A DNA stretch of 49,153 nt, from IMG/VR virus record IMGVR_UViG_3300025030_000158, positions 1 to 49,153 of that record; one strand, 5' to 3'. The first letter of the stretch is position 1, and the number at the start of each line of letters is the position of its first letter. The position numbers and the translations under genes were made by a program. Below the pieces are notes generated by a model. It was not told the DNA's origin. It did no database searches and worked only from the letters and a program-made list of their open reading frames with translations. This stretch comes from a virus. Below, one piece after another: positions 21,768-44,500 of this stretch.

Positions 21768-22079
21768 ATGCAAATGCAATCAGTCCAATCAATTACCGAA
21801 AGGCGAGAGTTCTGCGGCCTTGTTGACGGAGTCTTACTGACCGGCAGGTCCCACCCAACCGATGAGACATGGGCCAAGCAAATGCTGCTGGTTTTGCATC
21901 GTGCTGTTCCATCCATGTCATGGGAGCTTGAGATTCAATCCGGTTCTATCCTGTTTTGGTGTGGCCTGCACCCCACGTTCGGGTATCGCATGACGGCTGC
22001 ACAACTCAATAAGGGCTACTCAATACTTGCCCGAAAGGGCCAAGAGCTGGTCGAAAGGATCAAGGCTGGAGCATGCTAA
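21768..22079 (+). CDS. Hypothetical protein upstream of the portal gene, 103 aa
   Basis: AAGGA precedes ATG 21768. It has a compact globular pattern (SITERREFCGLVDGVLL, SWELEIQSGSILFWCGLHP) and a helical end. It overlaps the portal start by seven bases. Its place between terminase and portal suggests a packaging or head accessory role, but no family is recognised. Confidence 0.6.
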   Translation: MQMQSVQSITERREFCGLVDGVLLTGRSHPTDETWAKQMLLVLHRAVPSMSWELEIQSGSILFWCGLHPTFGYRMTAAQLNKGYSILARKGQELVERIKAGAC

Positions 22080-24103
22080 CCGAAGAAGCCCCCATGGAAG
22101 GCGACGAGTACGCCGGGACCGAACAAGAGGAAATCGATTGGCTGTCGATTGCCAAGGAAGCGTACAAGACCGGCACCGACTATCTTGACGCCAACTATCG
22201 AAAGCAATGGGAAAAGAACGTCTCAAATTTCCAGAACCGGCACCCTTCAGGCTCAAAGTATTACACTGACGCCTATAAGTTCCGGTCAAGAATGTTCCGG
22301 CCAAAGACCCGCTCGGCCATCAAGCGGTCTGAGGCGCAGTTCGCAGCGGCGATGTTTTCGACATCGGATGTTATCACGGTTGACCCGATTGACCAGATGG
22401 ACGCCGAAGAGGACAAGCAGGCCGAGGTATGGCAGGCTGTCCTCAACTATCGGTTGCGGCACTCGGTCCCGTGGTTCCTGACCTGTGTAGGGGCGTTTCA
22501 AGAGTCCAAGATTTACGGCATTGTGGTTTCCAGGCAAGAATGGGTTTACGAGGAAATCGAGGAAGAGCAAGTCTCAACCGATCCCATCACCCAAGCCGAA
22601 GTCCGAACGCCTGTCAAAAAGGTCATCGAAGACCGCCCCTGCTGCGAACTGATCGAGATTGAAAACATCCGGTTTGATCCGGCAGCAAAATTCTATGATC
22701 CGGTCAACACAAGCCCCTATTTCATCGAATTAATGCCGATGTATGTGGGTGACGTTCTTGAAATGATGAAAAAGCAAGACCCCAAGACCGGAAGGCCCGT
22801 ATGGAAAGAATACGACCGGGGCGAAGTCTTGGCCTACGGTCAGAGAGTAACCGGAAAATCCGACACCACCGGGCAAGCCCGGGAAGGAAACAAGACCGAC
22901 CCCAAAGGCAACGAGCAAAAAGCCAGAGAGTTTGAGATCGTTTGGGTCCATCGGAACTTCGTCAAGAAAGACGGCACCGATTACGAGTTTTACACCCTGA
23001 CCGATATGGCCCTGTTGACCGATCCGGTTCCTTCCACCTCTCCATTGGGAAGACCATACCGGGTAGGAATCTCAGCGATTGAGGCCCACAGAGCTATCCC
23101 TGCCGGCGATGCTGAGTTAGGGGCAGGGTTGCAAGCCGAAGCCAACGAAATCGTTAACCAGCGCCTTGATAACGTCAAGATCGTGTTGAACCGTGGGAAG
23201 TACGCCAAGCGAAACAGCGGCACCGACCTTACCACCCTCAAGCGGTCATACCCAGGTCGAATAGTCATGACCGATGATATCAACTCAATCAAAGAAGAGG
23301 TAGTCCAAGACGTAACCGGGTCAGCCTACCAAGAGCAAGACCGCGTAAACGCCGATATGGACGATTTGCTTGGAGGCTTTGCTGGTGGTTCAGTGATGTC
23401 CAATCGCGCCCTGAATGAGACCGTGGGCGGCATGAACCTGATAAATCAAAGCGGCAACTCGGTTGCTGAGTACGGTGCAAGGACTTTCGTTGAAACCTGG
23501 GTTGAGCCGGTCCTTTCCGATCTAATCAAGCTGATTCAGCTTTACGAATCCGACGAAATCCTACAGCGATTCGCAAAGACAGCCAGTGTTCAAATTGGAG
23601 ATCGAAAACAGTTCATGAAGCGGATGAGCGTTGCGGTATCCGTGGGCTTTGGTTCGCTGGACCCGAAGGCCAGGACACAGACTGTTACCCAGGTGCTTAT
23701 GGCTTTGGGGAAGATGGCTCCATGGGCCATGGCCGGCCTTGATGTCAAACGGCTGTCGAAGGAAATGTTCGGGACCGTGGGATACCGGGACGGGTCAAAG
23801 TTCTTTTCCAATCTACCGGACGGACCACCGCAGCAACCGGAAGACCCCATGATCGGATTAAAGAAACAAGAGCTTGAGATGAAGTCTCAAATTGAAATGG
23901 CTCGAATCAAAGCCGATTATGATGTGGAAATGTCGAAGCTGGCAATGCAGTACAATATGACCCAGGATCAACTCTACGCGAAACTCGACCTCGACGAGCG
24001 CAAGCATAATCTTGACATCATGAAGGAGATGAGCCGCAGGGAGGATATAGCAACCAAGCGTGAGGAAATGGCCCTGCGCCTCAAGACGGGAGAGGGTATA
24101 TGA
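22073..24103 (+). CDS. Portal protein
   Basis: A 676-residue protein in the expected place after the terminase and before the scaffold and coat genes. Features fit the large podovirus-like (P22/N4-type) portals: an acidic N-terminus, a stem and wing core with DPIDQMDAEEDKQAEVWQ and a central FVETWVEPVLSDLIKL helix. A C-terminal coiled coil rich in Glu, Lys and Met (from about 600) would form the barrel. The ring of portal subunits would form the DNA entry channel and the packaging and neck attachment site. ATG 22073 follows GGAG; ATG 22094 is a possible alternative. Confidence 0.85.
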   Translation: MLTEEAPMEGDEYAGTEQEEIDWLSIAKEAYKTGTDYLDANYRKQWEKNVSNFQNRHPSGSKYYTDAYKFRSRMFRPKTRSAIKRSEAQFAAAMFSTSDVITVDPIDQMDAEEDKQAEVWQAVLNYRLRHSVPWFLTCVGAFQESKIYGIVVSRQEWVYEEIEEEQVSTDPITQAEVRTPVKKVIEDRPCCELIEIENIRFDPAAKFYDPVNTSPYFIELMPMYVGDVLEMMKKQDPKTGRPVWKEYDRGEVLAYGQRVTGKSDTTGQAREGNKTDPKGNEQKAREFEIVWVHRNFVKKDGTDYEFYTLTDMALLTDPVPSTSPLGRPYRVGISAIEAHRAIPAGDAELGAGLQAEANEIVNQRLDNVKIVLNRGKYAKRNSGTDLTTLKRSYPGRIVMTDDINSIKEEVVQDVTGSAYQEQDRVNADMDDLLGGFAGGSVMSNRALNETVGGMNLINQSGNSVAEYGARTFVETWVEPVLSDLIKLIQLYESDEILQRFAKTASVQIGDRKQFMKRMSVAVSVGFGSLDPKARTQTVTQVLMALGKMAPWAMAGLDVKRLSKEMFGTVGYRDGSKFFSNLPDGPPQQPEDPMIGLKKQELEMKSQIEMARIKADYDVEMSKLAMQYNMTQDQLYAKLDLDERKHNLDIMKEMSRREDIATKREEMALRLKTGEGI

Positions 24104-24667: not shown

Positions 24668-25666
24668 ATGGAAGCTATCGTAACAGACGCCCCCCAAAGC
24701 GATGTAAAGACCAAGCACGACACGGATTATGAGGCCCTTCTGGCAAGACGGCAAGCGGAACAGGTCAAGACCGAACCAGAACCTGAACCTGAGCCCATCG
24801 TAGAGCCCGAAGAGTTGACCATCGACCTTGTGGACGCCAAAGGCAACACCATAAAAGTCCCGGCGTCAGCTCGTTACCGAGCCAAGATCGACGGTCAAGA
24901 AGTTGAGGTTCCGTTCGACAAGATCACCAGGAGCTACCAAGTTGGCGCTGCTGCCGATCAAAGGTTAGAGCGGGCCACGAAAAAAGAGCGTGAGGTTGAA
25001 GCCAGAGAAAAAGAAATCAATGAAAGGCGCAAGTCGTTAACGGCCCAAGAAGAATCGATGGCTGAAAAAATGAAGGCCAAAGACGAGCAGGCCGGAAAGC
25101 AAGTCAAGACGGATGACACCTATCTTGCCCTTGCCGGTAAAATGATCGAAGCGCTGACAGACGAGAATAACGCCGATAAGGCTCTGGCAGAAGTCCTAAG
25201 GGGCCTCACGCCCCAACAGGCGGTCAATTACGAAGAGATCGCCGCCAAAGCCAAACAGGAAGCCCTCGCCGAAATCGATAAGCGCGAACAAGAGCGCGAA
25301 TCAAAGGCAGCGCAGGCCAAAGCAGCGGAACGGGCCAAAAAGGCATCAGAGGCCAACCAGCGGTTTGCGAACGAATACAGCGATGTTATCGAGGATTCGT
25401 TCTACTACGACGCCGCAAAAGACCTCGCCAAGAAAAAATGGCAGGCCCGCCCCGATGCCGATCCCTGGGAAATCGCAAGCGAAGTGGGAAATGAGGTTCG
25501 TAAAAAGATGCCCGCAAAGGCCAAAGAAGAACCGAAGCCCAATCCCAAGCCGGCTCCTATCCCCAGAGTTGCCACCGGAAGGGCCAGCATCGGAAAAGAC
25601 CCTGAACCAGTAACCAGAGAATCAACCATCAAAGAAATGAAAAAACAACGGGGACAACCCGTCTAA
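24668..25666 (+). CDS. Head scaffold-like protein
   Basis: A 332-residue, very acidic and charged protein just before the coat gene. An Glu/Pro repeat (EPEPEPEPIVEP) opens it, then a short beta region (IDLVDAKGNTIKVPASARY), a long coiled coil (KKEREVEAREKEINERRK and following), and a lysine/proline-rich C-terminus that would hold the coat-binding helix-loop-helix. Size, charge and place match P22-type scaffold proteins that help assemble the prohead and then leave. AAAGGAAA precedes ATG 24668. Confidence 0.8.
   Translation: MEAIVTDAPQSDVKTKHDTDYEALLARRQAEQVKTEPEPEPEPIVEPEELTIDLVDAKGNTIKVPASARYRAKIDGQEVEVPFDKITRSYQVGAAADQRLERATKKEREVEAREKEINERRKSLTAQEESMAEKMKAKDEQAGKQVKTDDTYLALAGKMIEALTDENNADKALAEVLRGLTPQQAVNYEEIAAKAKQEALAEIDKREQERESKAAQAKAAERAKKASEANQRFANEYSDVIEDSFYYDAAKDLAKKKWQARPDADPWEIASEVGNEVRKKMPAKAKEEPKPNPKPAPIPRVATGRASIGKDPEPVTRESTIKEMKKQRGQPV
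25648..25662 (+). promoter_or_regulatory. Hairpin just ahead of the coat gene ribosome binding site
   Basis: ACGGG and CCCGT pair around a five-base loop (GACAA) at the end of the scaffold gene, two bases before AAGGAG (25665-25670) of the coat gene. One of four such hairpins in front of head genes. Confidence 0.45.
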
Positions 25667-25677
25667 GGAGATAGGCC

Positions 25678-26652
25678 ATGACTCAACTTTGGAGCGTAAA
25701 CAGCTTGGGCGGATATATGTATTCCGACAACCTGAGCAAAGAACTTCGCATGGGTGTCGCGCCCGCCGTGCGCTTTCGCCAATTCGCAGACATCAAAGAC
25801 CCGGAGCATCAGAGCCGGCACAAAGGCGCCACCTTCCACTGGAACGTGTTTTCCACCCTGACCGCAGACAGCGGGTCCACCACGCGGACCTTGACCGAAA
25901 CCAACACCATGCCCAAGGGTCGTTACACGATCACCCAAGGGACCATGACGATCACCGAGCACGGCATCGAGGCCCCCTACACCGGCCTTCTGGACGACCT
26001 GTCCGAGCAGCCCGTCAAAGAGATCATCCACAACGTCCTCAAGCGCGACTGCAAAGAAGCCCTGGACCGTGCCGCGGCCGCCGAGTTCAACAAGACCCCG
26101 CTTCGGGTGTGCCCAACTTCCGGCACCGATACGTCCGCAGTGACCCTGACTACCAACAGCGTTTGCACGCTCACCAACACCATTGCCCTGGGCAACCTTC
26201 ATGTTAAGTCCATTGTGGACCTCATGAAGGAAAGAAACATCCCGGCCTATACCGATGACGACTATTACTGCATCGCGTGGCCGACCACTTTCCGCGCCTT
26301 CAAGGACGACCTGGAATCCATCAAGCAGTACACCGACACCGGGTTCGGGCACATCATGCGCGGCGAGATCGGCCGTTATGAAAACTGCCGGTTTGTTGAG
26401 CAGACCAACGTCGCCAAGACCGCTATGGGCACGGCCGCCGCTGCCTGGGCACAGGCCAAGTCGAACTGGGCCTTTTTCTTCGGCTCCGATACCGTGGCCG
26501 AGGCCGTGGCGGTTCCCGAAGAAATCCGCGGCAAACTCCCTGGCGATTACGGTCGCGACAAGGGCGTCGCCTGGTACTATTTGGGCGGCTTTGGGATTTC
26601 CCACACGGACGTTGATCAAGCCCGCATCATTATGTGGGACTCGGCCGCTTAG
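25678..26652 (+). CDS. Major capsid protein
   Basis: A 324-residue coat protein of the N4 gp56/P22-type head family. The opening is MTQLWSVNSLGGYMYSDNLS. A YTGLLDDLSEQPVKEII stretch leads into the long spine helix, and FFFGSDTVAEAVAVPEEIRG with DKGVAWYYLGGFGISH marks the C-terminal axial region. It would form the icosahedral shell together with the portal and the proteins encoded upstream and downstream. It follows the scaffold gene by 11 bases, with a strong AAGGAG and a small hairpin ahead. Its codons look rich in C and G at third positions, as in a highly expressed gene (not computed). Confidence 0.88.
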   Translation: MTQLWSVNSLGGYMYSDNLSKELRMGVAPAVRFRQFADIKDPEHQSRHKGATFHWNVFSTLTADSGSTTRTLTETNTMPKGRYTITQGTMTITEHGIEAPYTGLLDDLSEQPVKEIIHNVLKRDCKEALDRAAAAEFNKTPLRVCPTSGTDTSAVTLTTNSVCTLTNTIALGNLHVKSIVDLMKERNIPAYTDDDYYCIAWPTTFRAFKDDLESIKQYTDTGFGHIMRGEIGRYENCRFVEQTNVAKTAMGTAAAAWAQAKSNWAFFFGSDTVAEAVAVPEEIRGKLPGDYGRDKGVAWYYLGGFGISHTDVDQARIIMWDSAA

Positions 26653-26698: not shown

Positions 26699-27130
26699 AT
26701 GAGCAGCTACGCAGATCCTAAATATGGTGTCTCCCATCAGCACATGCTGACCGGAAACGACGCCACCACCATGCTTTTTACCCCCCAGGCTGGAACGGGC
26801 GCGGAAACCAAGACCCACACCACGACTTGTGATCCGTGGGCTCCCGGGCGCGCCATTACGCTGAAGAAGATTCAGTACCAGGTCAAGACCGCTGCCACCG
26901 GCACCGGGAATTCTCTCGCCCTGGACATCTACAGCGGGACCACTTCGGTAGGCAGCCTTGCCGTTTCTACAACGGCAGCGCTTGGTATTGTCCAGTCTTC
27001 TGCCGATCTTGATGTGGCCGTGGCAGCTACCAGCTACATTCGGGTCCTCGCCAAATCCACCACGACAGCCAGCGCTGCGAACGCGGCCACCGGGCAAATC
27101 GGTATCACCTATCAGGAGACGTTCAGTTAA
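26699..27130 (+). CDS. Head decoration or structural protein candidate, 143 aa
   Basis: A Thr/Ala/Ser/Gly-rich beta protein with a repetitive pattern (DIYSGTTSVGSLAVSTTAAL, then AATSYIRVLAKSTT). It directly follows the coat gene and has its own AAGGAG, as do decoration proteins (head spikes and Ig-like or beta-sandwich cement proteins) in many phages. The stop overlaps the next ATG (TAATG). The beta-rich composition and position support a virion role; a specific family is not recognised. Confidence 0.65.
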   Translation: MSSYADPKYGVSHQHMLTGNDATTMLFTPQAGTGAETKTHTTTCDPWAPGRAITLKKIQYQVKTAATGTGNSLALDIYSGTTSVGSLAVSTTAALGIVQSSADLDVAVAATSYIRVLAKSTTTASAANAATGQIGITYQETFS

Positions 27131-28644
27131 TGTGGAGCCCTGAAAAGTCGCAAGGGTACGAAGTCAGAAAAGTTCGGGACAGGGTTGCATCCTATCTTCG
27201 AGGGGTGATTCTCGACGTAGGTTGTGGCCCTGAAAAGGTTTGTGTTGAGGCCATCGGCATTGATTATATGTCAAAAGCGGCCAATATTCAATGCGACCTG
27301 ACCCATCCTGAGTCCTTGCGGCTTTTCGGCTCAAACAGCGCTGACGTTGTGTTCTCTTCGCATTTCCTTGAGGACTGCATTGATTACGTGGGTATGCTCC
27401 ACGAGTTCTTTAGGATTTGCAAGCCTGGTGGCCACATCATTCTGTATCTACCCCACAAGGATTTATATCCGAACGTGGGACAAGAAGGGGCCAACCAGAA
27501 TCACAAGCATGACTTTATACCATCGGATATTATCGATGCAATGCCCGGGGTGTTTCTCGTCAAACGGTCTGTTGTTCATGATGAAAACGACGAGTATTCC
27601 TTTGAGTTGATCGTTGAAAAGGTTTCCGATCTTGCGCCGATGAGACTGCCGTATTCCATCAAAGAGTACGGCAGGGCGAATACCGTTGTTGTCGTAAGGT
27701 ACGGCGGGTTCGGTGACATGGTGATAGCGGCCCCAATCTTTAAAAGACTCAAAGAACAGGGGAAATACGTTATCGCCAATGTTTCGGCGGATTCAAAATT
27801 CGTTCTTGATGGAAACCCGTACATTGACGAGTTTTTGATTCAAAGCCGGTACACCATCCCGTCAACTCAACTCAAAGAATACTTTGAGGTTCTCAGCCAG
27901 CAATACGGGCAGGTCATCAATCTATGCGAAAGCATGGAAAGAACCCTGCTTGTAGAGCGCGAAAAAGACCCAGACCTGTTCTATCTTCCCCACGAGGAAC
28001 GCCACAAAAGGTTCAACCGGAACTATTCCGAAGCAACCATGGAGCTCGCCGGGTTAAGCGGTGGAGCCAAGCCAGAGCTTTATTTGACCCAGACCGAGGA
28101 AGTCCTTTGCAATGTGTTCAAGCAGAAACATAGGGGCTTTTTCAACGTCATGTTTCAAGTATCGGGGTCTTCTTGGCACAAACTTTATCCCCATGCGAGC
28201 GATGTAGTTGACGATCTGTTAGACGAGTTCAAGGACATGCAGGTTTTTTTGACGGGCGGGAGCAACGCCTCTTTATTGAACTGGACCCGGCCGAGGCTTC
28301 ACAACCGGATCGGGCAATGGGACATGCGTCAGACGATGGTTTTAACTAAGTTCATGGACTGCGTAATCTCCCCTGAAACCGGAACGCTCAATGCTGCCGG
28401 CGCTTTCGATACCCCCAAGATCGGGCTATTGACCCACTCTTCGAAAGAGAACCTGACCAAGTATTTCACAAACGATTATTCGATTCAATCCGATGCCCCC
28501 TGTAGCCCATGCCATAGGATGATTCACGAACTGCACGAATGTCCCCTGGACGATGTTTTTGGTCTTCCGGTGTGCATGTCAAAGTTTATGGACCCTGAAA
28601 AAATCAAGAACGCGGTAAGAGAAATCTACCGAAAAAGGAGTTAA
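27130..28644 (+). CDS. Fusion of a SAM methyltransferase-like domain and a GT9-family glycosyltransferase
   Basis: A 504-residue protein with two parts. The N-terminal 150 residues carry a class I methyltransferase motif I (VILDVGCGPEK, about 26-36), motif II (IGIDY) and a later FRICKPGGHIILYLP strand. From about residue 185, VVVRYGGFGDMVIAAPIF, then VSGSSWHKLYP, SPETGTLNAAGAF and CSPCHRMIHELHECPLD follow the plan of ADP-heptose:LPS heptosyltransferases (GT9). Bacterial GT9 proteins have a DSGPMHLA-like block where this one has ETGTLNAAG. It lies in the head operon between structural genes, so it may modify a virion part or alter host surface sugar after infection. The two domains are joined in one frame with no break. 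Confidence 0.8.
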   Translation: MWSPEKSQGYEVRKVRDRVASYLRGVILDVGCGPEKVCVEAIGIDYMSKAANIQCDLTHPESLRLFGSNSADVVFSSHFLEDCIDYVGMLHEFFRICKPGGHIILYLPHKDLYPNVGQEGANQNHKHDFIPSDIIDAMPGVFLVKRSVVHDENDEYSFELIVEKVSDLAPMRLPYSIKEYGRANTVVVVRYGGFGDMVIAAPIFKRLKEQGKYVIANVSADSKFVLDGNPYIDEFLIQSRYTIPSTQLKEYFEVLSQQYGQVINLCESMERTLLVEREKDPDLFYLPHEERHKRFNRNYSEATMELAGLSGGAKPELYLTQTEEVLCNVFKQKHRGFFNVMFQVSGSSWHKLYPHASDVVDDLLDEFKDMQVFLTGGSNASLLNWTRPRLHNRIGQWDMRQTMVLTKFMDCVISPETGTLNAAGAFDTPKIGLLTHSSKENLTKYFTNDYSIQSDAPCSPCHRMIHELHECPLDDVFGLPVCMSKFMDPEKIKNAVREIYRKRS

Positions 28645-28646
28645 TC

Positions 28647-28799
28647 ATGGAAAACGTGAAAGAAGGTCTGAGCGAGAAAAAAGAGATCAAGGAAAGCGAC
28701 AGCAAGTTCGGCATGACACGGGAAAACCCCGGTCAGATTCCGACCAAAAAGCCCGTCGAAAAGGCCTCAAAGGGCGGTAAGTCCTTTAAAATTTCGTAA
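28647..28799 (+). CDS. Small charged protein, 50 aa
   Basis: AAAAAGGAG precedes ATG 28647. The product is very polar and lysine-rich, with no hydrophobic core (KEGLSEKKEIKESDSKFG), and is probably disordered. It lies between the two glycosyltransferase genes. Function unknown; minor head protein or accessory peptide. Confidence 0.5.
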   Translation: MENVKEGLSEKKEIKESDSKFGMTRENPGQIPTKKPVEKASKGGKSFKIS

Positions 28800-28805
28800 C
28801 CAAGG

Positions 28806-28828
28806 GCCGGGGGTGAATAGCCCCCGGC
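28806..28828 (+). promoter_or_regulatory. Hairpin ahead of a small gene
   Basis: GCCGGGGG (28806-28813) and CCCCCGGC (28821-28828) with a seven-base loop, ending two bases before AAAGGAG of the next gene. Strong stem, no T-run. Confidence 0.55.
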
Positions 28829-28840
28829 ACAAAGGAGCTT

Positions 28841-28999
28841 ATGGACGAAAAAGAAAAGGGCTACGTTCAAACGCCGATGTACGAAGAGCCCGACGATTTA
28901 TACATCATGCCGGATTGGCCCCCCAAAGATCGGAGCCAGACCGCCGCCAACCATCGGCGCAGAACCGAAAGGGAGAAACGGGATGCGAACACTCGATAA
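28841..28999 (+). CDS. Small hypothetical protein, 52 aa
   Basis: AAAGGAG precedes ATG 28841. The sequence is proline- and acid-rich in the first half and arginine-rich in the second (NHRRRTEREKRDAN). It overlaps the next gene by 17 bases. A minor virion or accessory peptide is likely. Unknown family. Confidence 0.5.
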   Translation: MDEKEKGYVQTPMYEEPDDLYIMPDWPPKDRSQTAANHRRRTEREKRDANTR

Positions 29000-29306
29000 A
29001 TCAAAACCCTTTGGGGAAGTCTGTGGGGCTTCACAGTCCGGTGCAAGGTACGAGCAAGACGGCGTTTTGTTCGATGCGAAAGGCGAAGCCCTGAATGCGG
29101 TTGAGATCGTGATCCCCGAAGGGCTACCTCCCGGCCGGCCCCTGCTGCCGCCAGACGTTCCCGTATCCGAAGAGGAAACGGTGCTTTCGCGCTACCGGGC
29201 AGGGCTTTCGGTAAAGGAAATAGCCAAGGAAACCGGCATCCACCACAAAACCGTCGGGAAGATCATCAAGGATGCGAACGCTCAAACTGACATCGCCGTG
29301 GGATAA
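28983..29306 (+). CDS. Helix-turn-helix protein in the head operon, 107 aa
   Basis: The N-terminal half (FGEVCGASQSGARYEQDGVLF) matches a short phage block that I know from small head-operon proteins, usually with a Y-E-Q-D-G core. The C-terminal half is a clear helix-turn-helix, with the recognition part KEIAKETGIHHKTVGKII. It overlaps the second glycosyltransferase gene by 35 bases. It could regulate late genes or belong to the virion; the DNA-binding part is the only firm statement. Confidence 0.65.
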   Translation: MRTLDKSKPFGEVCGASQSGARYEQDGVLFDAKGEALNAVEIVIPEGLPPGRPLLPPDVPVSEEETVLSRYRAGLSVKEIAKETGIHHKTVGKIIKDANAQTDIAVG

Positions 29307-30294
29307 GTACGACTTTTCACGGTTAAAGGGTCCTGGAAAGTCCGTCTGTGTCGTTCGCTACGGGGCGTTTGGAGATATGATCCAAACGTCTTCGATTCTT
29401 CCGGCCTTAAAAGAGCAAGGGTATCATATCACGGTCAACGTGACCCCTTACGGCGAAAGGGTCATTCGTTCCGACCCGCATGTGGATTGCGTGTTCATCC
29501 AAGAAAACGATCAAGTCCCGAATCAAGGCCTCCCTCAGTATTGGGAAGCGCTATCAAAGCCTTTCGATAAGTTCGTCAACCTTTCAGAATCTATCGAAAG
29601 ATCACTACTTGCGGTCGAAGGTGAAAAATCCTTTAACTGGCATCCAAAATTCAGGGACATGGTTATGGGCGTTGATTACCTGGACGCAACCCACGCGATA
29701 GCCGACTGTGAGAATTACCCTAAAAGACCCAAATTTTATCCGACTGACGGTGAAAAGAAGTGGGCAAAGGAATACCGGCGAAAATTCAAAGGTAAGGTCA
29801 TAATGTGGGCGCTGTCTGGGTCGGCGGTCCACAAGTACTATCAGCGGATGGATGAGGTTATCGCCCGGTTGATGCTCAATACGGATGCCCCTATCGTCAT
29901 GGTGGGGGATAAGTCCTGTATTCTCTTGGAGTCTGCATGGATCAACGAAAAAAGGGTCATTCGAAAATCGGGTAAATGGTCGATCAGGGAAACCCTTGCC
30001 TTCATGCAGCAGTGCGACGTTGTGGTGGGAACAGAAACCGGAGTCATGAACGGGGCATCCTTTGGGCCGATGAAAAAGGTTATCATGCTGTCCCATTCCT
30101 CGCCTAAAAATCTGGGCGGGAGTTGGAGAAATACCGCTGTTATCACTCCGAAGGATTGCCCCTGTTATCCGTGTCATGTTCTTCATTACGGGTGGTCAAC
30201 CTGCCACTACGACAAAGAGACAGGCGGAGCGCTTTGCATGGCTAAAACAGATCCTAATGAAGTCTATCAAGCGGTCGTTGGCGGTTTATCCTAA
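29272..30294 (+). CDS. Second GT9-family glycosyltransferase
   Basis: A 340-residue relative of the C-terminal part of the protein at 27130. Shared blocks are VVRYGAFGDMIQTSSIL (near residue 29), LSGSAVHKYYQRMDEV, GTETGVMNGASFG, LSHSSPKNLGGSW and CPCYPCHVLHYGWSTCHYD. It has no methyltransferase part. It starts within the preceding gene, in another frame. Like GT9 enzymes it should bind a nucleotide-sugar (possibly ADP-heptose) and transfer the sugar to an acceptor, but the acceptor block differs from that of LPS enzymes. Two diverged copies in one head operon suggest a two-step sugar addition. Confidence 0.8.
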   Translation: MRTLKLTSPWDKYDFSRLKGPGKSVCVVRYGAFGDMIQTSSILPALKEQGYHITVNVTPYGERVIRSDPHVDCVFIQENDQVPNQGLPQYWEALSKPFDKFVNLSESIERSLLAVEGEKSFNWHPKFRDMVMGVDYLDATHAIADCENYPKRPKFYPTDGEKKWAKEYRRKFKGKVIMWALSGSAVHKYYQRMDEVIARLMLNTDAPIVMVGDKSCILLESAWINEKRVIRKSGKWSIRETLAFMQQCDVVVGTETGVMNGASFGPMKKVIMLSHSSPKNLGGSWRNTAVITPKDCPCYPCHVLHYGWSTCHYDKETGGALCMAKTDPNEVYQAVVGGLS

Positions 30295-30615: not shown

Positions 30616-31296
30616 ATGAGCAGCACCTTTTTAGAACTCTGTCAGTTGATGCGTCAAGAGTGCGGCGTTGGCGGGAGCGGGCCGCCCACTGTAACCGGGC
30701 AAACCGGGATGCTCGCTAAACTCGTTTCATGGGTAGCCGACGCCGATATCGATATTTGCACAAAGTATCTCGATTGGGGATTTCTCCATGCCGAGTTTTC
30801 ACGTCCCACGGTCGCCGGCACAAAGGACGTTTCGGCCCCTTCTGACTTTGGCCTGTGGGATGAGGATAGTTTTTTCCTCAACTACACCACCAGCGCGTAT
30901 CAAAAACTTTCCAAGTTGGATTACTTTGAATGGCGAAGCTCCTACCGAAACGGAGTCAAATCCAATCAAAAGCCCACAGAGATAATTATCAAGCCGAACA
31001 AAGACTTGATCCTTGAGCCGCCCCCTGACATCGAATACACCCTGACCGCGGACTATTACAAGACGGCAACCAAGATGACCGCCAACACCAGCGTTTCGTT
31101 GATTCCCACAAAGTTTGACCGCCTGATAATCGCAAGGGCTAAAATGTGGTACGCCGAGCACGAAAATGCCCCCGAAGTCATGCAGGGCGCAGTTGTCGAA
31201 TATAAGGAACTGATGGGACGGCTTGAATCACTTTACCTCAGAGGCCAGGAGCCCAACACGATGGGACACTCTCACATGGTAATCGTGCCAGAATGA
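30616..31296 (+). CDS. Head-tail adaptor or tail accessory protein
   Basis: A 226-residue protein with LELCQLMRQECGVGGSGP and TVTGQTGMLAKLVSWVADAD at the N-terminus and AKMWYAEHENAPEVMQGAVVEY near the end. I know this pattern from podovirus-like phages, where the gene follows the head genes and precedes the large stabilisation protein, as P22 gp4 precedes gp10. It probably fits under the portal ring. The next gene starts in an ATGA overlap. The assignment rests on pattern and order. Confidence 0.7.
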   Translation: MSSTFLELCQLMRQECGVGGSGPPTVTGQTGMLAKLVSWVADADIDICTKYLDWGFLHAEFSRPTVAGTKDVSAPSDFGLWDEDSFFLNYTTSAYQKLSKLDYFEWRSSYRNGVKSNQKPTEIIIKPNKDLILEPPPDIEYTLTADYYKTATKMTANTSVSLIPTKFDRLIIARAKMWYAEHENAPEVMQGAVVEYKELMGRLESLYLRGQEPNTMGHSHMVIVPE

Positions 31297-33383
31297 CGAG
31301 CAACTATAATAATAACGACTATAAGAATTTAGTAGCATACTATCCCCTTCGTGGAGGGGAAGATCTTGTGTCTCCAACTCTTTCGGTAAAACCGGGAAGA
31401 TTTAGGTTTTCCAGAAACTATGAATGCGACATCTCAGGTAGACCAAGAAGGATAGACGGCTACGAAAGATTCGACGGCCAGCCGAAACCTTCCGACGCTT
31501 CCTATTGGATTCTGAATTTTGACGCCGGCTGGACCGAAATCGAAGTTGACGACACGGTTGAAGGGGATACCTCCGGGGCTACCGGGAAAGTCCTCACTGT
31601 TGCCGTTGAGTCTGGGTCGTGGGCCGTGGGGGATGCTGTCGGGTATCTCATCCTTTACAATGTCACAGGGACTTTCGTAAACGACGAACCGATCCTTGTT
31701 TCAGCTTCAGCAGTTGCGACGACAAGCAGCGCCGCTTCCGAAAACGGTGCAGATAACGACACCGATAACGCGGCCTGGGCGCAAGCCGCTATCGAAGCGG
31801 CACGGTTAGATATTGCCGCCGTTCCGGGCTCCGGCAGTCTACTCGGGGCATGGCAATACAGCGGGGTCAAATACGCCTTCAGGAACAATGCCGGGGGGAC
31901 AGCCGGCGCTATGTATAAGTCCTCTGCGGCTGGATGGGTTCTTTGCACGCTCGGTAGGAGTGTTGATTTTACCAGTGGGGGAACTACTGAAATCGTAGCC
32001 GGAAACACAGTCACGGGGGCAACGTCAGGCGCTACGGCGGTTGTCGGCAGGGTGATATTGACCAGCGGAACATGGGCCGGTGGTGACGCTGCTGGAAGGT
32101 TTATCTTCACAACCCAAACGGGGACACTGCAATCTGAAAATCTGAATGTCGGCGCCGTAACCAATCTTGCTACCATTGGAGGAAACTCAACCGCCAACGC
32201 CCTGCCCTTGGGTGGTCGGTACGAATTTGAGAACTATAATTTCGGTGGCCATTCCAACACCAGAAGAATGTACGCCTGCAATGGAGTTGGAACCGCTTTT
32301 GAATGGGACGGGACTGTTTTTGTTCCTATCATTACCGGGATGACCACCGATACACCCAAGCATTTGAAATGCCATAAGGGGCATTTATTCCTGATATTTT
32401 CAGGCGGCTCGATTCAGCACAGTTCTTTCCTCGATCCCTACGAGTGGAGCGCGATTACGGGGGCGGCAGAGCTTGCAATCGGTGACGAAGGTGTAGGTAT
32501 GGCGGTTATACCGGGAGATGTTCTGGCGATCTTCGGGAGAAACTCCACTAAACTGCTTTACGGAACGACCATTGACGATTGGGATTTGCGGACCCACTCA
32601 AACGAATCCGGGGCCATTGAATGGACTATCCAGAGGATCGGCGGGAATGTAGTCTATCTTGATGATAGGGGGATCACCACCCTTTCAGCCACCGATACCT
32701 ATGGGGATTTTGATTCAAACACAATCTCAACCGATGTCCAGCCGTTCCTTAATTCAATGCGTGGGCTTGAGATCGCGTCGGTAAAGGTTAGAAAAAAGAA
32801 CCAATACAGGCTGTTTTTCACAGACGGCCATGTTCTTATTCTTACCATCAACGGAGATACAATCGTAGGCTACACCAGGGCATATTATGATGACCCGGTG
32901 GCTTGTTGTTGTTCGGTGGAAGACACCAGCGGAAACGAAGAGTTGTTCTTCGGGTCAACCGATGGGTTCGTCTACCAGATGGATAAAGGGACTTCGTTCG
33001 ACGGCGGGGCGATAGAAAGCTATCTGAAGGTCCACGCCAATCATTTAAAAACCCCGACCTATAAAAAGAGGTTCAGGAAGCTGACCGTAGAACTTGACGC
33101 TCCGAACAATATCACGTTGAGCGTTAGTCCTGATTATTCCTACGGTACCGATGAAAGCCCTTCAGGACAAGATTTGTCTATCGCCGCTTCCGGTGGTAGT
33201 TGGGACATCGATGCGTGGGAGTCTTTTGTTTGGGACGGTCCGTCTGTTTCGACAGGAGAAGCAAGGATTGACGGAAGCGGACTAAGTATTGGATTGGACT
33301 TTTATCATACCGGAATTTACGATTCGCCCCATACCATCCAAGGGGTAATTGTTCACTATGATGTAAGGGGGTTGAACAGATGA
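31293..33383 (+). CDS. Packaged-DNA stabilisation / tail hub protein (P22 gp10-like)
   Basis: A 696-residue protein in the place of P22 gp10. The beta-rich sequence with repeated strand patterns (FGRNSTKLLYGTTIDDWDL, GGNVVYLDDRGITTL, KNQYRLFFTDGHVLILT) fits a beta propeller that plugs the neck. Between about residues 80 and 290 it has two copies of a 50-residue motif: VEGDTSGATGKVLTVAVESG with GDAVGYLI, and VTGATSGATAVVGRVILTSG with GDAAGRFIF. This extra duplicated insert is not part of the usual gp10 fold as I know it. It may decorate the tail or bind sugar. The next gene starts in an ATGA overlap. Confidence 0.75.
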   Translation: MTSNYNNNDYKNLVAYYPLRGGEDLVSPTLSVKPGRFRFSRNYECDISGRPRRIDGYERFDGQPKPSDASYWILNFDAGWTEIEVDDTVEGDTSGATGKVLTVAVESGSWAVGDAVGYLILYNVTGTFVNDEPILVSASAVATTSSAASENGADNDTDNAAWAQAAIEAARLDIAAVPGSGSLLGAWQYSGVKYAFRNNAGGTAGAMYKSSAAGWVLCTLGRSVDFTSGGTTEIVAGNTVTGATSGATAVVGRVILTSGTWAGGDAAGRFIFTTQTGTLQSENLNVGAVTNLATIGGNSTANALPLGGRYEFENYNFGGHSNTRRMYACNGVGTAFEWDGTVFVPIITGMTTDTPKHLKCHKGHLFLIFSGGSIQHSSFLDPYEWSAITGAAELAIGDEGVGMAVIPGDVLAIFGRNSTKLLYGTTIDDWDLRTHSNESGAIEWTIQRIGGNVVYLDDRGITTLSATDTYGDFDSNTISTDVQPFLNSMRGLEIASVKVRKKNQYRLFFTDGHVLILTINGDTIVGYTRAYYDDPVACCCSVEDTSGNEELFFGSTDGFVYQMDKGTSFDGGAIESYLKVHANHLKTPTYKKRFRKLTVELDAPNNITLSVSPDYSYGTDESPSGQDLSIAASGGSWDIDAWESFVWDGPSVSTGEARIDGSGLSIGLDFYHTGIYDSPHTIQGVIVHYDVRGLNR

Positions 33384-38581: not shown

Positions 38582-41500
38582 ATGATGCCTTGGGAAAAGT
38601 ATTCTGCTACCCCCGATGGGCCGTGGGCAAAATACGGATCACCGGAACCGCCGAGCGCCGAGGAAGGGTCCAAGCCGGATAATCCAGACTTTAGTCTTGG
38701 GCGCCTTGGAAAGCAGATGTACCGTAACGCAGCACAAGGCGTTGCTGATGTCGCAAGAGCCACCGGAGCAGCCCGCAGAACCGATGCAGCCGGAATAGAA
38801 ACCAAGGGCCGTTACGAAGAAAGCGTCCCAACCCAGGGCCTTTTTGAAACCCGCGAGCAAGTAGGAGATGCATTTGAACGTGGCGAACTTTCAAGGGGAG
38901 ACGCCGAACAAATCCTCAAAACAGGCTTTAAATTCCAACCATCCCAACAGACCACAGCCCATGCCGAAGAGACCAGGGAAAAAGCCAAGCCGTGGGAAGC
39001 GTTAGCGGCGTCCATGCCTGAACCGCTTGGGGGATCTCCAGATGGGCTACTTGGCATTGTAGAGCAAGCCGCAGGCGGCATGGCTCGCTTTGCTCCGTCA
39101 ATGGCCGTTAGCGCCTTGAATCTCCCCGCTGGCACAGCTCTGACATTCAGCCAGCTTCACGGTTCAAAATTTGATGAACTGAAAAAGAAAGGCGTTGACG
39201 ACCAGCGGGCAAACGAAGCCGCCATGATCAGTGCCGCCATAATGACGCCGATTGAGCAGGCCGGAACAGTAGTTGAGTTGGGCGCGCTAAAAAACCTGTT
39301 CAAGTCAAGCGCTAAGGGGTTCGGCGCTAAGGCAAGGCAGTTCGTAGGCGCTCTGTTAAAGAGCAGCGCGGCAGAAGGCATTGAGGAATACCTTCAGCAG
39401 TACCCTGACGAGATTTCAACTCTGTGGGCGACAAATCCAGATAAGCCCCCGGCAGAACTTGCGAACCTTGTTATTCAAGAATTGCCGAGGATTAAAGAAG
39501 AGGCCAAGCAATCCGCAGTCGTTGGCGCGGTAGGCGGGGCTATGATGGCTGGTGCTGGTCAAGTGGCGTCTACCCCATTCAAGGGCAAGGCTGAAGAGAT
39601 AGAATCTCAGCCCACCTTTGACGGTAAAGTACAAGTAGCCCAGGACCAAGCCGCCCAGGATACAGCGCCCACGCCATTACAGAAAATAAAAGACAACGCG
39701 GCCAACCGGTTGACGCCCCCCGACATCAAGGTATTGCCACCTGGCCAAAAACTCATGGACCCGATGTCACCCAACAGCGAGACGGTTAAATTCCCGCGAC
39801 AGACCAAAGCCGACCGGGATGCGATTGCATCAGAATTTCAAGCATCGAACAAGGCCGCGGCCGAACGCGCAAAGCAGCAGCAAAATCAAGTCGGAATGCA
39901 AACGATCCTTCAACGGGTCGCTGAAAACCGGAGAAAGAACCAAGAGAAACTTGACGCTGTTGACCGCGTAGGTCTTACCCAACAGGAACGCCAAAAGTCT
40001 ATTGAGGCCGCCGACCGTGCCGAGCAAATGGCCGCAGAGGTCGAAAAGGTCAAGCAATCGTTCACCGGCAAAAAGCCCCCGCAACTGCAAAATATTGCTG
40101 ATGCCGTGGTTGAGGAAGCGCCCGCTGCGCCCGCCAGAGTCGAACCTGAGATTGACCAGGCCCCCGTTGGGCAGCCTCCCGTTGACCGGCAAAAGCAACA
40201 ACAGGAAGTTGAGTTGCTTGCCGACATCTTGGCAAGTTCTGAAGACAAGGCAGCACGTCAAGCCATAGCCGCAGAAATGAAACGCAGGTTCAAGCCCGCT
40301 TTCGTTCCCGGTTCATCCGATCCTTCCGGCTACCAATACAAACCAAGTACACAAGAGGCCCTGCGCTCGAGTGGTGAGCAGCAAGTTGAGCCCACCACCG
40401 GACAGGGTGTAATCGAGTCTCACCCCCCTGCCGACCCCTCCCGGCAGGTACAGCCTTCCCCGGCGCAGCCTGCCTCCTCCCAGGTTGACGCCGGGGAAGG
40501 CACCCCTAAAGCCGATCTGCCAAGTGTAGAAGCGGTAACGAACTCGTCAGAGATGGCGAGTTCAGCCCCCATCAACCAAAACGGCAAATCAGGCCGCCGA
40601 GCAATAGTTTCTTCCCCTGGTGGCGAACCGTCCGTAATAGCAGACAACCGCAAGCCAGCGATAGGTGAAAAGATAGAGGAACGGCGCAACGGCGATGACG
40701 AATACCTTAACAGCCTTCAGCCAAGCCAACGAGCTTCGGTAATGAGAATCCCAACAGAAACCCGACAAGCCATGCAGTCCGAATCAGCCAAGCACAACGC
40801 AAAGTTGATCGGCTACGAAAATGGAAAGTATTGGCTGCACGATAACGAGACTGGATCAAGCGGGAATCTGGTTGATTCAGTTGACCAGATAGCTGGAAAG
40901 ATTGCTGAGAATCGTGAGGCTTTTAGGTCGGTTCAAGGGCAGCAAGTTAAGGCAACGCCCCCAACCTTAACCGAGCCGAGCGGTAAGGAAAGCCCCGTTC
41001 AGCAACCGGCACCCGTTCAGGAAAGGCGAACAGCGCCGGAAGGTGAACAGAATACGAGCGCAACGAACCAGAAGGGCAAGGATGACAAGCCCATCTTTTC
41101 GCGGAGAAACCAGCAGACAGAAAGCCTCAAGGAGTTCTCGGGCCGCATAAAAGAAGATTTGGGGTTAAGTCAATTCGATGTCTACGAAAGGAATAATGGA
41201 GACATCGAGCTAAGTCTCCTGGTGGTTCCGAAAGGTGAAAGAAAAAAAGGTAAGGGATCGGACGCCGTTCGTGCTCTGGCCGAATACGCCGATATTGCAG
41301 GCAAAAGGATATTCGTTAACCCGGCACAGAAAGACGACGCGCACGGCACTACGTCCCACGCTCGCTTACTCAGGTTTTATAGTAGGTTCGGCTTTGTCAG
41401 AAACACCGGGCGAAATAAAGATTTTACGTTACCTCCGGGCATGTATCGTAACCCGAGAGTGCCGCTATTCCAGAAGCGCACCCCCCAAGAGCACGGCACC

Positions 41501-44500
41501 CAAAAAGCCAAAGACATAACCCGCAAAATAAACCGCGTGACATCCGCATGGCAGAACGCACCAACGGTCGAAGTAGTCCAATCCCAATCCGACCTGCCCG
41601 GCGACATCCTCAACCACTTAAAAGCCATCGGCGCGGAAACCGACGTAGTTGACGGCACCTTCTACCAAGGAACTGTTTACCTCGTAGCGGATAACCTCGC
41701 TTCCGAAAAGGCCGCAATTCAAACGCTACTCCACGAATCCTTCGGACATTACGGGCTTCGGGAACTTTTAGGCCCTCGCTTCGGCCAGATTTTACGGCAA
41801 GTCTACAACTCTAAAAAGTCAGAGATTGACGCGATAGGCAAAGAGTATGGCTTTGACACGCGCAGGGCTAACGGCCAAGCCCTTGCCGCCGATGAGTGGC
41901 TTTCCCGGCATGTTTCGGAGAACGAGCAATCTACTTGGATCGACAAGATCATCTCTGCCATCCGGTCATTTGTTCGAAGGATTGCTCCGAATCTCAAATT
42001 TTCAGATGCCGAAATAAGGAACCTTCTTGACGCTGCCCGGTCCCGCGTAGTGGGAACCTCCCCCTCCTTGGCCGGCGCGGGATCGGGGGCGTTATCCCCT
42101 ATTGACCTTTCCGCCGAAAATGCCTTAAATCAGCCTGTGACCTCCAAGCGCGGGGCGGGCATAACCACCGAGAATCAACCCGAGAAGCCCGAAGGTGGGA
42201 AAATCAAAAGGCTGTCAATCGTAGACGAAGCCACGCTGGACAACTTCATAGACCACATAGAGAAAGACAAAACCGGGGGTTCTATTGGGATTCGCGGAAT
42301 ATATCGCCATGAGGTCGGCAAGAAAAAACTAAAGCGATCCCTTGATTCTGTTGAAATGCCTGATGGAACAACAAGGAAAGGGTGGTTGTCGGGAACGTCT
42401 GTTATTGAGATCGCTGGAGATTGGGATAGCATACCAAAAGATTTGTTGATTGAAAATCTCCGCAAGGCTTGGGATAGGGTCCAAAAATATGGCGACAGTG
42501 GGTTTGCTATAGTTAGCGGAGACTTGCGTAAAAACGAAATTAGTAACGATATAGGCGAAGCCGTATTCGGAAATGCAAGAGTTATCGCATATATTGACTC
42601 GGTGGATGTCAGCAAACTTTCCGACCCTAACCCCACAAGCCAACCGGGCAAGGCATACAATCCGAGGGGGAACAAATCAGCTATAGAAATGCGGGAAAGC
42701 GACCCGAACGGGAGCCTCGCAAACTACGACGACCAAAGCAAAAAGGAATGGCTTGCGGCACCACCCCCGGCAAATGGAAAACTAAAACTATACAGGGCGA
42801 CACCAGAGGGCGCACCAATTAAGCCTGGTGATTATGTTACAAATTCTAAACAGTACGCGCTTGACCATATAAAAAACAACCTGGGCGGAAAAGGCAAAAT
42901 AGCCGAAATAGATGCCACCCTCGATGATATCTATCCCGCTGATGGCCCAAAGGAATTTTGGTATGCCCCTGCATCTCTCATAGACTCAAGCCAACCGGGC
43001 AAGGTTGGCACTGAACTATCCTCGACGACGGCCACCGGCTCCATCACCCCCCGCCAAGTCCAGAAAGCCTTCGAGCAAAAAGGCTTTAAAACCGAACGGA
43101 TAGGGAACCTGATCCGCGTCAAAACCCCCTCTGGCAACCTTTACGTTGACGTTACCGATATGGTCGTAGAAAACGACGCCGAAGCCATCAAGATCGGTTA
43201 CGGTCGTTCCGCGGACCCCGGCGAGAAGGTGGCGGGCTCCTATCAGAACTTCGACGGCACCGGAACCATCCGGCTTAAACGAAACCTTGCCGACGAATAC
43301 ACCCTATCCCATGAAACCTTTCACCATCTCAAGGCCGCTGGAATCTTCAACCCCCTTGAGCTTGCCACGCTCAAGAAAGCAGCAGGTCCGGGCGAAGAAG
43401 CGCAGGCCCGATGGATCGAAGGGAAGCTCCGTGAGCGCGGGAGTGAAAAAGGGATCATCGCCCGGTTGATTCAGAAGGTGGCCGATTGGCTGGATGCCTT
43501 TGCTAATCTGGTGGCGGTGACCGAGCGTGGGATTGTTCGTGGGATGGAGAGCGGCGAGTTTTTGGGCCGGGAATCTTATCTGGGTGAGGATTTGACGGAA
43601 GAAGGCGGGTTGGCCGAAGCGGGCCGCAAGCTTGACACGGATGCCGAAAATGCCTTAAATCAGCCTGTGACCTCCAAGCGCGGGGCGGGCGACATAGCCA
43701 CCAAAGAAACTCCGCAAGGCCCGAAGGGTGGGAAATACGAAGACATCAGATCCCAACTCAATGGCATGTCTAAGGACGACTTCGACAAGACCGAACAGCG
43801 GGTAGGTAGCAACTTAAAAGAGGCTTTAAGCCGGGTTGTCTACGCTGAAGAGGACTACCGACTTCCGAATCTTGGCAACATGATCCCGCCCGATAGGATG
43901 ACCCCGCAACTCAAAAGCAAGTCCAAGAGGGTCAAGATTTACAGGGCGGTTGAGGGGCAATTCAATTCCGTTCGTCCCGGAGATTGGGTGACCCTTACAA
44001 GGTCGTATGCCAAGGGTCACACTCAGGGCAGAAGCGGCGCAAAGATTCTTGAACTTGAAGTCCCGCGAGAGGATGTGGTTTGGGCCGGAACTGATGAAAA
44101 CGAGTTCTTCTATGCCCCCAAGGAACTTGCGAGACCGAACGCTAAAAGCACGTTTGATGGTATCACAGAGGCGCTTGAATCTATCCCTAACCCCACAAGC
44201 CAACCGGGCAAGGTTGGCACTGAACCAACCCGCTATTCCACCCTAACCCCCAAAGAACAAGGCGGCCACAAAGCCAATCTATCTGCCAAATACGATGAAG
44301 CCAGAGCCGCCATAGAGCGCCCATTAAACGATTTTATGTATTGGATAGTGGACAAAAACCACACCATCCAGGCGGTTCAGGAAAAACTCGATCTAGTCAC
44401 AGAAGACATAGACCTTTTTCTGAAGGAAACCCAACGGCCTAAAGTAACCGCGTCCAGGGTCAAAGGCTTTTGGGACGAGCAAGCCAAGCCCTTCATGGTT

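Follow-up and report, generated by a model that had tools for sequence, protein, structure and literature searches.

Predicted GT9-type glycosyltransferases in the capsid module of uncultivated short-tailed phages, candidates for virion glycosylation

We have analysed two glycosyltransferase genes in an IMG/VR virus record of 49,153 bases (IMGVR_UViG_3300025030_000158; the whole stretch is called “the window”): a methyltransferase fused to a glycosyltransferase of family GT9 (MTase-GT9, 27130-28644, + strand, 504 residues) and a stand-alone GT9-type protein (29272-30294, + strand, 340 residues). Both have the GT9 fold with a conserved active site and are located in the capsid module; the GT9 gene is co-inherited with the capsid gene, is under purifying selection, and in relatives has further glycan genes nearby. 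We propose that the two genes act in a late “capsid glycosylation” cassette, with glycosylation of a virion protein as the most likely function, a reading to which we give about an even chance; many uncultivated short-tailed phages would, by this, glycosylate their own virions. The proposal draws on the location of the genes, their co-inheritance and their neighbours, and on the precedent of mycobacteriophage capsids and of TibC.

Both open reading frames (ORFs) that the first-pass annotation had assigned to GT9, one of them as a fusion with an S-adenosylmethionine (SAM) binding domain, are open and hold up as such. The product of 27130-28644 consists of a class I SAM methyltransferase (residues ~1-167), matched by PF08241 at residues 43-105 (33.7 bits, cutoff 21.2), followed by a GT9 domain of GT-B fold (residues ~184-504), matched by PF01075 at residues 339-465 (25 bits, Pfam gathering cutoff 22). 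The product of 29272-30294 is not matched by the Pfam GT9 profile, and is 33% identical to the GT9 domain of the fusion over 322 residues (E 3e-50). A sequence search of the Protein Data Bank has returned no significant GT9 match, and the scores are far under the NCBIfam equivalog cutoffs (TIGR02195, 19.4 vs 134.6 bits; TIGR02193, 16.1 vs 185.3 bits).

AlphaFold models built from family alignments have a predicted local distance difference test score (pLDDT) of 92.3 for MTase-GT9 and 92.1 for the stand-alone GT9. The closest solved structure to the stand-alone model is the Veillonella GT9 3TOV (VIA Z 23.4, 4.2 Å, 288 residues), followed by WaaF (1PSW, Z 22.4), WaaC (2H1H, Z 20.3) and TibC (Z 19.0), with chains of the plant NDH complex scoring in the same range (Z 18.9-19.8); UDP-GlcNAc 2-epimerases and other GT-B enzymes are located below the solved GT9s and TibC, at Z 13.9 or less. 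The MTase-GT9 model gives the same order (3TOV, 23.1; WaaF, 22.2; WaaC, 19.8; TibC, 19.6), so that the comparison with WaaC and WaaF, proposed as a check by the first-pass annotation, is positive for both models (Z 19.8-22.4). The N-terminal domain of the fusion resembles SAM methyltransferases (3DLI, Z 16.9; RebM, Z 14.3), and SAM motif I (D/E-x-G-x-G) is intact in most of 42 long family members.

In the profile alignment of the family with bacterial GT9 enzymes (probability 98.4, E 5e-15), D35 falls on D13, the catalytic base of WaaC, K188 on K192, E255 on D261 and N260 on H266, and four cysteines (C298, C301, C311 and C322), which could make up a finger after the donor site, fall on the CxPC..C..C cluster of the WaaF type. 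The blocks VVRYGxFGDM, ETGxxNxA and CxPCH are indeed common to both proteins, and their key residues are invariant or nearly so across 79 relatives: D35 and K188 in 79/79, and E255, N260, H302 and the four cysteines wherever covered (77-78 of the 79 members; E and N in 78/78). The LPS (lipopolysaccharide)-heptosyltransferase signature D(T/S)(A/G)xxH is absent from the phage family, which has ETGxxN instead, while D(S/T)GxxH occurs in all 32 of a random set of bacterial GT9 controls. WaaC loses activity 900- to 4,700-fold when D13, D261 or K192 is mutated (PMC5713226), and D261 and H266 touch the donor heptose (PMC3559599). Since ETGxxN aligns with these two donor contacts, the change affects the site of the donor sugar, not the acceptor side to which it had been assigned before; the earlier idea of a new substrate thus survives as a sequence-based hint of a changed donor sugar, and not of a changed acceptor. 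CxPCH, which had been listed among the shared blocks, is ordinary for GT9, with CxPC present in about three quarters of the same 32 controls; we have rejected it as a special mark and as specific evidence for an iron finger of the TibC type, as it is also found in WaaF-type bacterial enzymes. We predict, with near certainty, that both proteins are active enzymes of GT-B fold and GT9 type in which the donor site is altered.

The two genes are situated between the coat gene and the neck genes, as first described, with a capsid gene (phrog_1357) on the 5' side and an SU10-type adaptor gene (PF24175) on the 3' side, and this arrangement is general among the relatives. When the capsid gene is taken as an anchor, independently of GT9, a GT9 gene follows directly downstream in 46 of the 56 loci with enough DNA; when MTase-GT9 is the anchor, the capsid gene is located just upstream in 69/73, and in the four exceptions GT9 is preceded by large proteins of surface type and still followed by neck-type genes (assigned by eye). 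In 70 of 81 relatives, the start of the adaptor gene overlaps the stop of GT9 by four bases, as an ATGA-type junction. GT9 distances correlate with those of the capsid protein (r 0.84) and of the portal (r 0.89), values that none of 500 permutations has reached; the three genes are co-inherited. The median ratio of nonsynonymous to synonymous substitution rates (dN/dS) of GT9 is 0.10 over 136 pairs, i.e. the gene is under purifying selection. The tail modules on the 3' side differ between the fusion and the stand-alone forms, while GT9 remains next to the capsid in both, and in two loci (L089, L090) the fusion is present in phages with different head or tail genes.

Group I introns (RF00028) also occur inside or beside the major capsid gene in several relatives, sometimes two per locus (L009, 3658-3953; L010, 452-737; L012, 2794-3070 and 3616-3914; L073, 3690-3971; L091, 3435-3762; L157, 5721-5946; L161, 5715-5945 and 7062-7286).

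The family is widespread in environmental DNA: in our scans of IMG/VR, a relative of GT9 was present in at least 164 contigs and a relative of MTase-GT9 in at least 249, with overlap between the two sets. Among 50,697 GenBank phages, GT9 has no close DNA or protein relative and MTase-GT9 has matches to its methyltransferase domain only, while only eight loci were found among 84,980 species genomes of bacteria and archaea; the host genomes found are Gram-negative and belong to several proteobacterial classes and to Thermodesulfobacteriota. Locus L086, from the environmental strain Pseudothauera rhizosphaerae CC-YHH848, is prophage-like. The 112 distinct sequences comprise 63 stand-alone forms and 49 long fusions, which occupy separate blocks of the GT9 tree, a topology that is consistent with one transition between the forms. 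Our literature search has found no paper that describes phage GT9 genes in capsid operons. Local variations are seen in some loci: a further divergent GT9-like ORF with the motif RYGAYGD and no Pfam match between the capsid gene and MTase-GT9 (L213, 2703-3968; L214, 2153-3430; L215), and a very basic protein of 170-200 residues just before GT9 (L029, L042, L061, L062, L066).

In about 15 relatives, the gap from the capsid gene to GT9 carries further glycan genes, O-methyltransferases of sugar type among them: a GT4 with a PIG-L deacetylase and a hexapeptide acyltransferase (L010), TylF (L034, L249 and L251, with similar ORFs in L138 and L158), FkbM (L040, L244), GT2 (L079, L218, L224, L236), and PF01973 proteins that also have a methyltransferase domain (L244, L275), PF01973 being the domain of Maf flagellin O-glycosyltransferases. 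A sulfotransferase and a methyltransferase precede GT9 in L036, where no capsid gene is seen upstream; the remaining large inserts are homing-endonuclease-like or unassigned. A small ORF of beta type is located directly 3' of the capsid gene; in the window, this ORF (26699-27130, + strand) is rich in serine and threonine (27%), is decoration-like in composition, and its stop codon overlaps the start of MTase-GT9. We regard it as a candidate acceptor. Relatives have been found only in four viral contigs and L091, where they abut an orthologue of the window-type MTase-GT9 wherever mapped. The marine versions of the small ORF are related to ORFs in loci that lack GT9, which means that the ORF is older than the enzyme or has persisted after its loss.

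Under the virion-glycosylation reading, the nucleotide-sugar would be bound in the C-terminal domain through K188, E255-T-G and N260 (K192, D261 and H266 in WaaC), and D35 of the N-terminal domain (D13 in WaaC) would deprotonate the acceptor hydroxyl, with transfer of the sugar, with inversion, to a virion surface protein; the likely acceptor would be the capsid protein, or else the Ser/Thr-rich, decoration-like protein encoded next to it. The fused methyltransferase may O-methylate the sugar once attached, or before transfer, and in relatives, the extra tailoring genes may lengthen or modify the glycan. Catalysis in vivo, the donor sugar, a protein as acceptor and the order of methylation are what we infer. 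Two precedents make such a scheme plausible: TibC demonstrates that protein glycosylation is possible for a GT9-like fold (PMC4358343), and, according to the passages of PMC12619734 and PMC11256854 that cite Freeman 2023, mycobacteriophage capsids and tail tubes bear glycans that are put on by phage glycosyltransferases. More tentatively, and on the improbable side, we envisage a large lineage of uncultivated short-tailed phages of Gram-negative bacteria whose capsid is glycosylated, and often O-methylated, by core genes of its own capsid module, from a donor other than ADP-heptose, and whose glycan differs from phage to phage through the exchange of tailoring genes at one fixed spot, in the manner of a capsid “serotype” locus.

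Several observations weigh against glycosylation of the virion. Cultured phages with capsid proteins roughly 49-57% identical (Vibrio phages, PTXU04, HelliStehle) have no GT9, and the gene is missing in 10 of the 56 metagenomic loci, so neither capsid assembly nor the capsid type needs it. Common descent, instead of function, can account for conserved synteny inside a single clade, and the glycan ORFs have been picked by inspection of large inserts. A comparison of ORF 26699-27130 with the ORFs of ~131 residues that occupy its position elsewhere has not supported homology (hhalign probability 3.5). Moreover, characterised GT9 enzymes mostly act on LPS.

The last point leads to the main rival, which we consider doubtful: that the enzymes act late on the host LPS core, adding a sugar and a methyl group to the receptor, which would keep new particles from being caught by debris or by cells already infected, or would block superinfection. 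Alteration of LPS had been named by the first-pass annotation next to capsid glycosylation as a role for late-acting genes; the late location in the capsid operon and the GT9 identity have stood, the capsid idea has gained support from synteny, co-inheritance and the tailoring genes, and the LPS idea stays as a competitor. WaaF and WaaC are among the closest solved relatives, the host genomes found are Gram-negative, and the blocking of phages through phage-encoded O-antigen modification is well documented (GtrABS, PMC11990801). Nevertheless, the gene shares its inheritance with capsid and portal, nearly every locus has it within the capsid operon, it keeps this place while the downstream tail modules vary between the two forms, and it is retained across several proteobacterial classes and Thermodesulfobacteriota though their LPS cores differ. 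The LPS-directed cassettes of temperate phages are, on the other hand, usually accessory genes.

It is improbable that the GT9-like proteins are assembly factors of the capsid-neck joint, bifunctional or regulatory, with catalysis lost: the translational overlap with the adaptor gene and the position at the head-neck boundary would fit such a role, but the catalytic positions are all invariant, the fused methyltransferase keeps its SAM motif, and other sugar enzymes cluster at the same place. Still less probable, to the point of being remote, is glycosylation of the phage DNA bases (hypermodification) in the manner of the T4 glucosyltransferases. Phage glycosyltransferases often modify DNA, as is cited in a passage of PMC12619734, yet a non-exhaustive scan of the window genes has found no base-hydroxylating or hydroxymethyl-pyrimidine gene, the location is a structural operon, and the nearest structural matches are heptosyltransferases of LPS and autotransporters, not DNA glycosyltransferases.

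If virion glycosylation is correct, it would be common among the aquatic phages that infect Gram-negative bacteria, and would have been missed so far because no cultured relative found here carries the gene; glycans covalently linked to the capsid are on record for a few mycobacteriophages. GT9 or MTase-GT9 is an inherited gene of the capsid module in hundreds of environmental phages, together with a variable glycan-tailoring set, and the family offers candidates for protein glycosylation in which the donor site is altered.

The other genes of the head operon of the window are all located on the + strand. The SU10-type portal protein (22073-24103; PF23899, 3.9e-32; phrog_1216, 1.3e-24) is followed by a putative scaffold (24668-25666), charged and coiled-coil-like, which has been assigned from position and composition, has no match in PHROG, and has homologues between the portal and capsid genes in most relatives. 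The major capsid protein (25678-26652; phrog_1357, 1e-18) is 48.6% identical to cultured Vibrio podovirus relatives. Between the two glycosyltransferase genes, translation gives ORFs of 49 residues (28647-28799) and 52 residues (28841-28999); the former resembles the C-terminal extension of MTase-GT9 in L006 and L007 (3786-5459 in both), judged by eye against the A6 consensus. The next gene (28983-29306; PF13384, 1.6e-5) encodes a small protein, a conserved member of the capsid module, with the N-terminus KPFGEVCG...QDG and a C-terminus of helix-turn-helix type. The N-terminal pattern LD..KPYG.V.G....QDG..F precedes GT9 or the adaptor in many relatives (e.g. L199, 8020-8301; L198, 7981-8226; L200, 8706-9158), with a variable C-terminus, and also occurs in cultured phages without GT9. 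Downstream of GT9, the SU10-type neck adaptor (30616-31296; PF24175, 9.8e-13) is followed by a probable head-closure or tail protein (31293-33383; phrog_5107, 2.3e-17), whose position equals that of the Hc3-annotated gene of Vibrio phage 1.232.O. In the late region, a single ORF of 2,835 residues (38582-47089) matches phrog_14770 and phrog_616, both of unknown function, and a ParB C-terminal profile. Promoters predicted between the window genes are no more numerous than expected by chance.

Compared with known systems, the phage enzymes share with WaaC and WaaF (CAZy GT9) the GT-B fold (Z 20-22), the catalytic D13 and K192 and the WaaF-type cysteine cluster, but differ in having ETGxxN in place of D(T/S)GxxH, in scoring far below the equivalog cutoffs, in the location of their genes within a capsid operon, and in their frequent fusion to a methyltransferase. 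With the bacterial autotransporter heptosyltransferases (BAHT; TibC, AAH) they have in common the GT9-like fold (Z 19.0-19.6), four cysteines C-terminal to the donor site that may form a finger and, as proposed here, a protein acceptor; the N-terminal beta-barrel that BAHT activity needs is absent, as the GT-B domain is preceded by ~22 residues in the stand-alone GT9 and by the SAM methyltransferase in the fusion, the phage locus has no autotransporter, and the cysteine cluster, being common to ordinary WaaF-type enzymes, is not BAHT-specific. The glycosyltransferases of the mycobacteriophages Che8 and Rita (Freeman et al. 2023, as cited in passages of PMC11256854 and PMC12619734) are likewise phage-encoded with a proposed role in virion glycosylation, but the host is Gram-positive, and in the F1 phage Maravista, as cited, the glycosyltransferase genes are 3'-terminal in the genome. 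Lastly, the Xuquatrovirus podoviruses PTXU04 and HelliStehle and Vibrio phage 1.232.O have capsid proteins 51-57% identical to those of family members and the same order of capsid gene, small ORFs, adaptor and head closure; in the family described here, unlike in these phages, the capsid-adaptor interval contains a glycosyltransferase.

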